Assembly (NCBI RefSeq): GCF_016863275.1
Contig: NZ_BOOO01000020.1
Location: forward strand, 62,001-126,000
Direction: 5' to 3'
Origin: Planotetraspora mira
Lineage (GTDB): Bacteria; Actinomycetota; Actinomycetes; Streptosporangiales; Streptosporangiaceae
Length of the DNA: 64,000 nt
Shown here in pieces: positions 40,800-43,152 of the stretch (the stretch's first letter is position 1; every line of letters begins with the position of its first letter). The notes beneath the pieces were generated by a model. It ran no database searches, had not been told where the DNA came from, and saw only the letters and a program-made list of their open reading frames with translations. A program made the position numbers and the translations under genes.

Positions 40800-41019
40800 G
40801 GCTGGATCACGACGTCGTGCGGGCGAACCCTCCTGCCCGCCCGTCGCCTGGCCCGCCGTGACCTCGGCGAGCCCTTCCAGGAGGCCGTCGAGCACCTTGG
40901 AGAAGAACGCGCCGACTTCCAGCGCGCCCATCACCTTTATGCGTCAATCGCCGCTATGTGTCCATCGACCCGAAAAATAGAATGCGCGCCGAATATCGCA
41001 CCGGATACCGTCTGATCTT
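40800..41019. other. Region upstream of the Y-RNA array
   Basis: 220 bp without a gene. The right half is AT-richer than its flanks. TAGAAT at 40978-40983 is a fair -10 box for a rightward transcript that would run into the RNA array. 'CTGATCTTG' at 41012 resembles the 3' element of the RNA units and may be a vestige of a further copy. Confidence 0.4.
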
Positions 41020-41162
41020 GTACCTCCCGGTGCGCAGGCAACGGTTACTTCGCTCTCTCAAAGCGGCAACGCGGGTTCGAATCCCGTCGCCGGCTTCGGG
41101 CCGGTGTCGTCCAGTGGCCTAGGACTCCTTCGACCGCCGCCGCTCTGACCTCGGGTGGGACA
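41020..41162 (+). ncRNA. Y-RNA-like RNA, unit 1, with permuted tRNA-Glu-like module
   Basis: Terminal stem CCTCCCGG (41023-41030) with CTCGGGTGG (41150-41158), then GGTGCGCA and an inner stem GGCAACGG (41037-41044) with CCGCCGCC (41134-41141). Between lie, in order: an anticodon-type arm (5 bp, loop CTCTCAA at 41055-41061, 'anticodon' CTC), a T arm (41071-41087, loop TTCGAAT), a 7-bp acceptor-type stem closed by TTCGG (41088-41106), and a D arm (41109-41125 with GG in the loop). All tRNA-Glu parts are present but in circularly permuted order. The conserved GGTGCG...GGTTACTTC and CTGACCTCGGG blocks match the Ro-binding ends of Y RNAs. Lies upstream of rsr. Confidence 0.85.
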
Positions 41163-41265
41163 CAACTTAACAGCACCTCCCCGGTGCGAAGGTCCCGGCT
41201 ACTTCTCTCCAAAAGAACCCGTCCGGTACCACCTCTGATCTCGGGGAGACACAACTTCATATGCA
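41160..41265 (+). repeat. Conserved ACACAACTT linkers between RNA units
   Basis: Units 1/2 and 2/3 are separated by 16-17 nt linkers that both open ACACAACTT (41160 and 41249). The unit 3/4 linker is a looser A-rich version. They may be processing sites or traces of the duplication. Confidence 0.6.
41175..41250 (+). ncRNA. Y-RNA-like RNA, unit 2, minimal
   Basis: Terminal stem CTCCCCG (41177-41183) with CGGGGAG (41242-41248), conserved GGTGCGAAGG and CTGATCTC, inner stem GGTCCCGG (41191-41198) with CCGGTACC (41223-41230, one mismatch). The apical loop is only ~24 nt and carries no tRNA-like element. The 5' strand GGTGCGAAGGT...CTACTTC is close to the 5' strand of vertebrate Y RNAs. About 75 nt long. 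Confidence 0.75.
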
Positions 41266-41365
41266 CCTCCCGGTGCGATTGGCAGCAGTTACTTCATTGG
41301 TCGAACACCTTCGGGTGGCGGGTTTCGATACCCGCACACTGCCGCCGACCTTTGATCTCGGGAGG
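41266..41365 (+). ncRNA. Y-RNA-like RNA, unit 3, with reduced tRNA-like module
   Basis: Terminal stem CCTCCCG (41266-41272) with CGGGAGG (41359-41365), GGTGCGATT and TTTGATCTC blocks, inner stem GGCAG (41281-41285) with CTGCC (41339-41343). The apical part has a UUCG-closed hairpin CACC/GGTG (41306-41317) and a T-arm-like hairpin GCGGGT/ACCCGC (41318-41335). A D arm and acceptor stem are not seen. Confidence 0.75.
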
Positions 41366-41382
41366 AGAAACAAATTCAGAAT

Positions 41383-41522
41383 GTGCCCGGTGCGCAGGTG
41401 ACGGTTACTTCGATAGGGGATCGAGCGGTCGCAGGTTCGAGTCCTGCCCGGCCGACGTATTCGGCCGGTAGCTCAGCTGGACAGAGCACTTGGCATCCGT
41501 CGCCGATCTCGATCTCGGGCAC
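41383..41522 (+). ncRNA. Y-RNA-like RNA, unit 4, with permuted tRNA-like module
   Basis: Terminal stem GTGCCCG (41383-41389) with CGGGCAC (41516-41522), GGTGCGCAGG block, perfect 8-bp inner stem GGTGACGG (41397-41404) with CCGTCGCC (41497-41504). Module order: anticodon-type arm (loop TAGGGGA at 41414-41420), variable CGGTC, T arm (41431-41447, loop TTCGAGT), 8-bp acceptor-type stem CCGGCCGA/TCGGCCGG closed by CGTAT (41448-41468), TA, then a D arm (41471-41487). The middle resembles tRNA-Pro(GGG), but position 33 is A. First 27 nt of its core differ from unit 1 at only two positions. Ends 46 nt before rsr. Confidence 0.87.
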
Positions 41523-41534
41523 GACCTCTGAACG

Positions 41535-41563
41535 CGGGCTCCTCCCACACAGGAAGGGGCCCG
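41535..41563 (+). promoter_or_regulatory. Hairpin over the rsr ribosome-binding site
   Basis: CGGGC (41535-41539) pairs with GCCCG (41559-41563), and CCT (41541-41543) can pair with AGG (41551-41553). This would hide the strong AGGAAGGGG ribosome site (41551-41559) that precedes ATG 41569. Confidence 0.45.
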
Positions 41564-41568
41564 TTCCC

Positions 41569-43152
41569 ATGTCGAAGTTCAACACGACCGCCGCACGCCC
41601 GGCCACCACGAGCCCGGTCACGACCGAGGCCACCCCCGGCATCCGCACTCACGAGGGCGCGCCCGGGTACATCCGCGACGCGAAGGGCGAGCTCTTCCTC
41701 CTCGCGGTCTCCAACATGGTCGGCGAGAACACCTTCTACGAGAAGGCCGGTGACCGCGACGTGCGCTTCCGCGCGCTCGTCCACCAGGTCGCCGTCGAGG
41801 ACCTCGACTGGATGGCCCGCTTCCTCCCGTGGTTGCGCGGCGAGGCCGACATGCGGTCCGCGCCCCTCGTCGCCGCGCTCGAGGCGGTCAGGGCCCGTCT
41901 CGCGGCCGGCCTGCACGGCGGAAACCGTGACCTGGTCGCGTCCGTCTTACAGCGCGCCGACGAGCCTGGCGAGGCTCTCGCCTACTGGACGTCCCGGTAC
42001 GGCCGGGCGATCCCGAAGCCGGTCAAGCGCGGCGTGGCCGACGCCGTCCAGCGTCTGTACACCGAGCGGTCGCTGGCCAAATACGACAGCGGGACCAGCG
42101 GTTTCCGCTTCGGCGACGTGATCGACCTCGTCCACCCCACGCCGGCCCACGACAAGCCCACGCAGGGCGACCTGTTCACGCACGCGCTCGACCGGCGCCA
42201 CGGCCGGGACAAGCCGATTCCGGAGTCGCTGGGGATGTTGCGCCGGCGCGCCGAGTTGCTGGCGCTGCCCGTGTCGGAGCGGCGCACGGTCATGGCCGCC
42301 GACCCCGGGCGGCTGCGTTCCGCGGGCATGACATGGGAGGCGCTCGCCGGATGGTCGCAGGGCCCGATGGACGCGCAGGCCTGGTCGACGGTGATCCCGT
42401 CGATGGGCTACATGGCGCTGCTGCGGAACCTGCGGAACTTCGACGAGGCGGGCATCGGCGACGAGGTCGCCGGGCAGATCCTGGCCAAGCTCGCCGACCC
42501 GGAGGAGGTCGCCCGGTCCCGGCAGCTGCCGTTCCGGTTCTACTCGGCGTACCGCAACGCGCCGTCGCTGCGGTGGGGCCACGCGCTGGACAAGGCGCTG
42601 ACGCTCGCCACCGGGAACGTGCCGTCCTTCGAGGGCCGGACTCTGGTCCTGGTGGACACCTCGGCGTCGATGTCGGCCGGGGCCGTCTCGGCGCGGTCGA
42701 CGGTCACGCCGGTCCAGGCGGCCGCGCTGTTCGGCGTGACGCTCGCGGCACGCGGCGACCAGGTCGACCTCGTCGGCTTCGCCGACGGGACGTTCCGACA
42801 CGAGATCCGGTCCGGGGCCTCGGTGCTGCGCGAGGTCGAGCGGTTCTGCGGCCGCATCGGCGAGGTCGGCCACGGCACACGGATCGCCGACTCGCTGCGC
42901 CGCTCGTGGAAGGGCCATGACCGGGTGGTGATCCTGTCGGACATGCAGACCGTGACCGGCCACTACGCGGGCGGCGTCACCGACGCGGTGCCGGCGACCG
43001 TGCCTCTGTACGGCTTCAACCTGCAGGGGTACCGTGCGGCGGCGATGCCGACGGGTCAGGGGAACCGTCACGAGTTCGGCGGGTTCTCCGACGCGTCGTT
43101 CAGGCTGATCCCGCTGCTCGAGGCGGGCAGGTCGGCCGACTGGCCGTACTGA
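41569..43152 (+). CDS. rsr: TROVE-domain RNA-binding protein, bacterial Ro60 orthologue
   Basis: A 527-residue Ro60 orthologue. Residues ~25-350 are the TROVE HEAT-repeat ring ('FLLAVSNMVGENTFYEKAGDRDVRF', 'LDWMARFLPWLRGEADMRSAPLVAALEAV', 'GYMALLRNLRNFDEAGI'), which binds Y RNAs outside and misfolded RNA ends inside. Residues ~355-527 form a von Willebrand A domain with an intact MIDAS motif DTSAS (D363-S367). Partners in other bacteria include PNPase and RtcB. The four Y-RNA-like units lie just upstream on the same strand and are its obvious ligands. ATG 41569 is used because upstream sequence is the RNA array. Confidence 0.95.
   Translation: MSKFNTTAARPATTSPVTTEATPGIRTHEGAPGYIRDAKGELFLLAVSNMVGENTFYEKAGDRDVRFRALVHQVAVEDLDWMARFLPWLRGEADMRSAPLVAALEAVRARLAAGLHGGNRDLVASVLQRADEPGEALAYWTSRYGRAIPKPVKRGVADAVQRLYTERSLAKYDSGTSGFRFGDVIDLVHPTPAHDKPTQGDLFTHALDRRHGRDKPIPESLGMLRRRAELLALPVSERRTVMAADPGRLRSAGMTWEALAGWSQGPMDAQAWSTVIPSMGYMALLRNLRNFDEAGIGDEVAGQILAKLADPEEVARSRQLPFRFYSAYRNAPSLRWGHALDKALTLATGNVPSFEGRTLVLVDTSASMSAGAVSARSTVTPVQAAALFGVTLAARGDQVDLVGFADGTFRHEIRSGASVLREVERFCGRIGEVGHGTRIADSLRRSWKGHDRVVILSDMQTVTGHYAGGVTDAVPATVPLYGFNLQGYRAAAMPTGQGNRHEFGGFSDASFRLIPLLEAGRSADWPY

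Follow-up and report, generated by a model that had tools for sequence, protein, structure and literature searches.

Two of the four Y RNAs encoded upstream of rsr in Planotetraspora mira very probably carry a complete, circularly permuted tRNA cloverleaf

The window analysed here is a 64,000-nucleotide stretch of the Planotetraspora mira genome (contig NZ_BOOO01000020.1, positions 62,001 to 126,000), in which four Y-RNA-like units (u1 to u4) occupy positions 41023-41523, 5' of rsr, the gene of the bacterial Ro60 protein. The tRNA-like module of u1 and u4 is, with high confidence, a complete, circularly permuted cloverleaf, interrupted by the Y RNA body between tRNA positions 28 and 29. The anticodon stem is thus stitched from two strands, nucleotides 27-28 leaving the D arm and nucleotides 29-31 entering from the Y body. 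The permutation is already known, whereas the anticodon arm in a Y RNA module is new here, with uncertain priority. The units and their parts, with bit scores from the covariance model R1 described below, are as follows.

41023-41158, plus strand: u1, Y RNA whose tRNA module is complete and permuted, with a D arm like that of tRNA-Glu and the anticodon loop CUCUCAA; R1 101 bits
41052-41066, plus strand: u1 anticodon arm; 29-31 GCU at 41052-41054, loop CUCUCAA at 41055-41061, 39-41 AGC at 41062-41064
41065-41066 and 41127-41128, plus strand: u1 split outer pairs; 42-43 GG and 27-28 CC, respectively
41071-41125, plus strand: u1 T arm 41071-41087, acceptor 41088-41094 and 41100-41106 closed by UUCGG, U8 at 41107, D arm 41109-41125
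41177-41248, plus strand: u2, short Y RNA without tRNA module; R1 50 bits; orthologues in loci L004-L007
41266-41365, plus strand: u3, Y RNA with a reduced module, called from sequence and fold; R1 42 bits; orthologues in relatives
41382-41523, plus strand: u4, Y RNA whose tRNA module is complete and permuted, with a D arm of the GUAGCUCA type; R1 127 bits
41411-41425, plus strand: u4 anticodon arm; 29-31 CGA, loop UAGGGGA at 41414-41420, 39-41 UCG
41489-41490, plus strand: u4 27-28 CU, forming the split outer pairs with 42-43 AG
41431-41487, plus strand: u4 T arm 41431-41447, acceptor 41448-41454 and 41462-41468 closed by ACGUAUU, U8 at 41469, D arm 41471-41487

An earlier note on this stretch had proposed four tandem Y-RNA-like units before rsr, and all four are present at the above positions (locus L003). 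Their outer stems, described there as paired while differing in sequence, read as written: CTCCCCG/CGGGGAG in u2, CCTCCCG/CGGGAGG in u3 and TGTGCCCG/CGGGCACG in u4, with six of seven pairs in u1 (CCTCCCG/CGGGTGG, a single T-T mismatch). Covariation across relatives upholds the proposed compensatory change; the u1 mismatch recurs in L004 and L006, and is replaced by T-G in L005 and T-A in L007. The distinction between full, reduced and absent tRNA modules was likewise borne out, since permuted D, T and closed acceptor arms are found in u1 and u4, only a T-arm-like hairpin in u3, and none of them in u2. The u3 module consists of a CACC-UUCG-GGUG hairpin and of the T-arm-like hairpin GCGGG-UUUCGAUA-CCCGC. 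The units resemble bacterial Y RNAs in the broad sense: they lie next to rsr, u4 ending 45 nucleotides (nt) before the gene, and they have a lower stem with an internal loop, the outer stem and stem 2 both covarying.

R1 was built from 55 modules, u1 and u4 among them, with u2 and u3 outside. It finds all four units, the next best match in the window reaching only 15 bits. As u1 and u4 match R1 by construction, fair support comes from the covariation of the stems and from this gap to the next-best match. No Rfam family reached its gathering score in the window.

Relatives of the locus were taken from genome contigs and viral contigs (the best 80 of at least 485 and the best 80 of 251 relatives), and from 60 related genomes, 20 of which had a match. 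RNAalifold analysis of the 55 modules delineates the outer stem, stem 2, the T arm, a 7-base-pair (bp) closed acceptor and the D arm, with 33 pairs, 24 of which show compensatory double changes. The order along the module is hairpin 29-41, variable loop, T arm, closed acceptor, D arm and then nucleotides 26-28, which is that of a circularly permuted tRNA. A closed acceptor (at least six of seven pairs, followed by U8) is present in 87 of 98 units with a perfect anticodon arm, 75 of them with all seven pairs, and the loop closing it measures 2-7 nt in 75 of the 87. A genuine tRNA would be expected to have an open acceptor in the standard order; here the acceptor is closed and the strand order permuted. 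Scanning 160 loci retrieved 200 modules with T, acceptor and D arms, 116 of them with the anticodon arm, in 213,834 upstream bases, as compared to none in 390,698 downstream bases and none on the upstream reverse strand.

The anticodon arm itself, which the earlier note had overlooked, was revealed by the region ahead of the T arm. Among 188 units whose T arm is preceded by 15 nt or more, 97 display at this place a perfect 5-bp stem with 7 nt in the loop and 4-5 nt in the variable region, whereas shuffling gives a mean of 3.9 (maximum 9 of 200) and other loop lengths give 1 to 18. Stem and loop were also selected independently of each other. Units picked by the stem alone (n = 98) have U33 in 92 cases, A38 in 94 and a purine at position 37 in 92; conversely, those picked by the loop alone (n = 96) have a perfect stem in 69 cases and four of five pairs in 22, although four loop-selected units are doubtful, their 7-mer overlapping the UACUUC anchor. 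Of 60 distinct loop-selected arms, 42 are perfect, as compared to 6.1 when the 3' strands are re-dealt. Over 51 arms (49 loop-selected ones and the two from the window), 92.5% of the cells are paired, against 37-56% when the strands are slid, with a covariation score of 0.765 versus 0.26 in shuffles.

How this arm connects to the Y body was deduced from a set for which the three inner pairs, U33 and A38 were the sole criteria, and which comprises 104 of 171 full candidates and 80 distinct modules. Positions 27 and 43 are paired in 77 of the 80, and positions 28 and 42 in 78. Watson-Crick pairs account for 74 and 73 of these, respectively, versus 52.7 and 33.8 after re-dealing (0 of 2000 trials as high), and the next offset (29 to 41) gives no signal in the same 80 modules (49 versus 48.8). 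The D-side nucleotides 27-28 thus pair with 43 and 42, which places the Y body between positions 28 and 29. The same test was repeated without the Y-stem descriptor on 32 uncounted modules from 67 loci; about one third of the contigs had been seen before, counted sequences were removed, and one module is a real phage tRNA-Glu. In this set, 27-43 is paired in 31 of 32 and 28-42 in 27 of 32, with 28 and 26 Watson-Crick pairs versus 14.2 and 11.2. Both window arms follow this scheme: u1 has CC/GG outside GCU-CUCUCAA-AGC, and u4 has CU/AG outside CGA-UAGGGGA-UCG. Every pair written in the two window cloverleaf strings is standard, the u1 string omitting the T-T mismatch and stem 2. A first parse, with a 5-bp hairpin and the body at 26/27, was dropped because its outer pair with the UACUUC strand showed no covariation at position 43 (72 of 80 paired versus 71.4 re-dealt; 13 Watson-Crick pairs versus 12.1).

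The arm recurs among 60 further viral loci, about one third of them on contigs seen before, from which known unit sequences were removed. They yielded 64 new units in 29 loci, of which 33 have a T arm and 13 a perfect anticodon arm (shuffle mean 0.78, maximum 4); U33 and A38 are both present in all 13.

Several observations weigh against this architecture. Position 33 of u4 is A instead of U. The cloverleaf is not the predicted fold of either unit, with an energy of -50.1 versus a minimum of -65.2 kcal/mol for u4, and of -31.9 (string without stem 2) versus -55.1 for u1. When the module is folded alone, u1 yields four arms and u4 does not. RNAalifold did not draw the anticodon arm on the 55 modules, and the likeness of u4 to the Rfam family YrlA (RF02553) amounts to 43.7 bits, below the cut-off of 69. 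The arm is moreover not universal, as seen from the 104 of 171 candidates passing the strict test. At four of five pairs, 74 of the 171 fit the hairpin form only, 48 both forms and 11 neither, while 38 fit an opened form only, where there is no hairpin and 39-43 are paired with the D-side strand. Position 42 also covaries with the UACUUC strand (44 of 80 Watson-Crick pairs versus 32.3, 0 of 2000 as high), though more weakly than with the D side (73 versus 33.8), so that a competing 4-bp hairpin with the UACUUC strand may oppose the 28-42 pair. As for the minimum-energy folds, their z scores are -0.04 (u1), -1.89 (u2), -3.42 (u3) and -1.82 (u4); single-sequence folding provides thus no evidence for u1.

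The loop of the arm combines fixed and variable positions. Between pairs at least 80% alike outside the loop, the differences per site amount to 0.08 at position 33, 0.52, 0.56 and 0.43 at positions 34, 35 and 36, 0.32 at position 37 and 0.06 at position 38, the acceptor and the T loop showing 0.34 and 0.05, respectively. At the orthologous u1, the triplet CUC of the window is replaced by UUC in P. silvatica and by GCA in three congeners; the u4 triplet is GGG, CGG or UUU (among the congeners, the u4 loop reads UUCGGGA in L005 and L006, and UUUUUAA in L007). Over all pairs, the triplet shows 0.52 differences per site; in like-for-like pairs its rate is 0.35, the acceptor-closing loop reaching 0.52. 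These rates do not support diversifying selection on the triplet, and a free or nearly free triplet suffices to explain them. Since the triplet changes at a rate near, and not above, that of an unconstrained loop, the arm looks kept for its shape and not for decoding. For the same reason, the earlier suggestion that one Rsr could be given several specificities has lost ground, in the sense of tRNA isotypes.

The triplet may nevertheless not be wholly free, and this also speaks against the simple picture: the D arm and the variable loop resemble those of the isotype named by the loop (mean ranks of 15.1 and 15.3 out of 44, versus 21.5 with re-dealt labels). In addition, 61 of 66 triplets match anticodons used by the tRNAs of their own genome, column shuffling giving 56.4 (24 of 5000 shuffles reached 61), and none of the 66 is a stop anticodon. 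Taken together, the anticodon excess and the likeness of D arm and variable loop are hints of an isotype history. Two broader proposals were rejected. Isotype mimicry by the whole module shows a partial signal in the D arm and variable loop and none in the T arm, and the exact loop matches to own tRNAs (52 of 81 versus 38.4 with contexts re-dealt) largely reflect a generic CU...AA frame.

The remaining features of the locus are as follows.

41006-41011, plus strand: TACCGT, a -10-like hexamer 11 nt before u1; probable start of a transcript covering the array and rsr
41159-41176, plus strand: spacer 1, 18 nt, GACACAACTT..., repeat D3
41249-41265, plus strand: spacer 2, 17 nt, ACACAACTTC..., repeat D3
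41366-41381, plus strand: spacer 3, 16 nt, called from sequence
41569-43152, plus strand: rsr (bacterial Ro60), 527 amino acids; TROVE 2.4e-14, predicted fold matching Ro60

Gaps between units are short in the relatives too (median 16 nt, 207 of 248 not exceeding 30 nt). The motif TANNNT peaks at six positions located 19-24 nt before the GTGCG of the first unit, which hold 64 of the 109 occurrences detected when 62 nt of each of 142 distinct upstream regions were scanned; the window site, TACCGT, is at -24. Together, the short gaps and this peak suggest that the array is made as a single transcript, starting at the -10-like hexamer and running into rsr, which would be cut into Y RNAs.

The explanation that we favour, as a rather probable one when taken as a whole, is that one transcript provides Rsr with interchangeable adaptors, two of them being whole-tRNA mimics. 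The locus would form one transcription unit beginning at the first Y RNA, cut into four and continuing into rsr. Each Y RNA would hold Rsr by its lower stem, with its GGUGCG / GAUCU internal loop, by analogy with known Ro-Y complexes. The module of u1 and u4 would then tether to the Rsr ring a partner that binds tRNA, for instance PNPase or one of the general tRNA enzymes; for this role the chances appear about even. Given the complete cloverleaf, the U-turn pattern and the nearly free triplet, the module should act as a handle with the shape of a whole tRNA. Having no module or a reduced one, u2 and u3 would leave Rsr without this handle or with less of it, and the Rsr pool would be split among whole, reduced and bare adaptors. 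In the source portions covered here, bacterial Y RNAs are otherwise described as imitating three tRNA arms, namely D, T and acceptor. Should a large group possess the fourth arm as well, with its two-stranded stem, conserved U-turn and drifting triplet, the module may have a partner that reads the whole L-shape, and what Y RNAs recruit to Ro60 becomes a question testable by defined mutants.

Other explanations account for part of these observations. The arm could be a relic, the module stemming from read-through of tandem tRNA genes and the arm being kept solely for the L-shape, without a partner of its own. An origin of the module by such read-through may be envisaged from the sequences: R1 takes tandem tRNA-Asn genes with a 4-nt spacer (L250 234-385) for a permuted Y module at 48.9 bits, two tRNA-Glu(ctc) genes stand in tandem in the genome itself, separated by 11 nt (L002 1494-1652), u1 being Glu-like in its loop and D arm, and hairpin-less modules also exist. 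A mere spacer arm does not need a U-turn loop, whereas U33 and A38 persist (in 92 and 94 of 98 units) while the triplet drifts, and a 3-bp arm obeys the same loop rule in one Xanthomonas record, which makes the relic unlikely.

Arrays might also display several anticodon loops per locus as bait for anticodon-cutting RNases, either toxins or phage-defence nucleases. Such decoys are consistent with loops that follow real anticodon loops, with the above excess of triplets used by own tRNAs and lack of stop anticodons, and with rsr and Y RNAs being embedded among clustered tRNA genes in two of the phages retrieved. YrlA as a competitive inhibitor of an anticodon nuclease is even named as a possibility for the Salmonella operon in part of PMC7790460; the same source states that YrlA fragments were not detected, meaning that YrlA is not a substrate of that nuclease. 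As the triplet rates, set against the closing loop, give no sign of diversifying selection either, we consider decoys quite unlikely. A similarly unlikely extension would be that the actinobacterial and phage Y arrays are anticodon-bait panels, in which the Ro60-held mimics, one per particle and each with an anticodon loop of its own, catch anticodon-cutting RNases, or flag cut mimics to PNPase. If this were true, the free triplet would reflect attacker turnover, and the Ro60-Y ribonucleoproteins would be a defence against tRNA damage. Finally, plain tandem tRNA genes or pseudogenes taken for Y RNAs, or permuted genes yielding working tRNAs, are hardly tenable in spite of ARAGORN calling part of u4 a tRNA-Pro(ggg) and phage annotators calling one Y RNA a tRNA-Arg, since a 2-7-nt closure leaves no room for CCA and a leader in 75 of 87 acceptors, the flanking Y stems covary, the order is permuted and no such module occurs downstream of rsr.

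Y RNA arrays near rsr and tRNA mimicry are reportedly known already from the work of Chen in 2014. Circularly permuted tRNA genes of algae and archaea encode the 3' half ahead of the 5' half, and the window modules share this order; they differ by their closed acceptor, the Y body at 28/29 and the lack of any sign of a charged product. A close relative is YrlA, of which the Salmonella structure 6CU1 is described as circularly permuted relative to tRNA (PMC11472068, in part), and which is a substrate of tRNA-modifying enzymes (PMC8394870, in part). YrlA resembles u1 and u4 in adjoining rsr and in having a lower stem with a permuted module of D, T and acceptor arms. Unlike them, its RF02553 consensus has the helix joining body and module at the place of the anticodon stem, without an anticodon hairpin. 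RYPER, the Deinococcus radiodurans machine of Rsr, Y RNA and PNPase, likewise contains a Ro60 ring, and PNPase is bound there by the tRNA-like effector domain of the Y RNA (PMC8394870, same portion). The window is similar in its Ro60 ring and tRNA-like Y RNA domain, with four Y RNAs and a putative PNPase contact. The Salmonella rsr-yrlBA-rtcBA RNA repair operon also associates rsr with more than one Y RNA (PMC7790460, in part), whereas in the window the Y RNAs precede rsr. No rtcB or rtcR is found among the seven neighbours of rsr; the RtcB genes are on contigs C33 and C44, and the window on C20. An anticodon arm in Y RNAs goes without mention in the portions covered of PMC8394870, PMC7790460, PMC11472068, PMC13355120 and PMC8190616, and literature searches brought up no paper on one, the main papers lying outside this scope.

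On a Xanthomonas sacchari plasmid, the gene order is rtcR-rsr-Y RNAs-rtcB-rtcA, with a YrlA match of 72.1 bits, the only one to reach the RF02553 cut-off among 14 loci scanned. The arm appears there as a 13-nt insert relative to RF02553 (AGC-CUCUUAA-GCU), and a close paralogue has AGC-CUCCGAA-GCU. A viral-contig search for relatives of the Xanthomonas Rsr found none, so that outside Actinomycetota and their phages the arm rests on this one record. The three matches in Brevundimonas phages lack a perfect arm, and one of 11 matches in five actinophages has it. Gordonia phage VanLee offers a perfect case, annotated as tRNA-Arg(tct) (L256 2704-2775) and overlapping a Y RNA before rsr. An annotated tRNA-Arg(cct) likewise overlaps a Y RNA upstream of rsr in Streptomyces phage GiJojo (L254 2769-2843), and in the Streptomyces phages GiJojo and BRock (L254, L255) rsr and its Y RNAs lie inside the phage tRNA gene cluster. 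In the window, ARAGORN places its tRNA-Pro(ggg) at 41384-41456, the 5' part of u4. A warning follows for annotation: among the tRNAs reported by tRNA finders and in phage annotations are some Y RNAs, and the Rfam model misses all four window units.

The rsr product scores above the cut-off for TROVE and below that for VWA_2. Its predicted fold (mean predicted local distance difference test score 84) superimposes on Ro60 (2i91) with Z 28.9, a root-mean-square deviation of 3.3 and 476 aligned residues (residues 20-521), and on D. radiodurans Rsr (2nvo) with Z 20.9, a deviation of 4.9 and 445 aligned residues. The protein is 97% identical to the Rsr of P. silvatica. A second rsr-like paralogue exists in the genus, with 43% identity (G000:C17:101236-102495, L028), and has no match to the Y model at six loci including 1.5 kb of flank.

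The array of four had been thought unusual, which the relatives contradict. Units were counted with a simple descriptor, discarding those scoring below 7.5 or lying more than 1300 nt away; 158 loci had at least one unit, of which at least seven were counted double (identical stretch fetched twice). Broken down by size, 18 of the loci hold a single unit, 70 a pair and 41 a set of three; 24 hold four units and 3 hold five, with one further locus holding six and one holding eight. With 24 loci having four units and 5 having more, such an array looks ordinary for the group. The eight-unit array lies before rsr on a viral contig (L133). Across the class, rsr is found at E values up to 1e-20 in 29 of 246 genomes, and an R1 match lies within 2 kb upstream in 28 of these 29 (exception G210). 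Fifteen genomes have an R1 match without rsr, one of which (G071) has a divergent rsr adjoining the match; in the remaining 14, all matches stay below 50 bits, and both of those inspected are tandem tRNA genes. Other R1 matches located away from rsr are a pair between metK-like and priA-like open reading frames, so named from their reading (L246 2781-3041), a single one on the minus strand beside a permease-like frame (L247 3067-3203) and one before an NmrA-like gene (L249 2061-2197).

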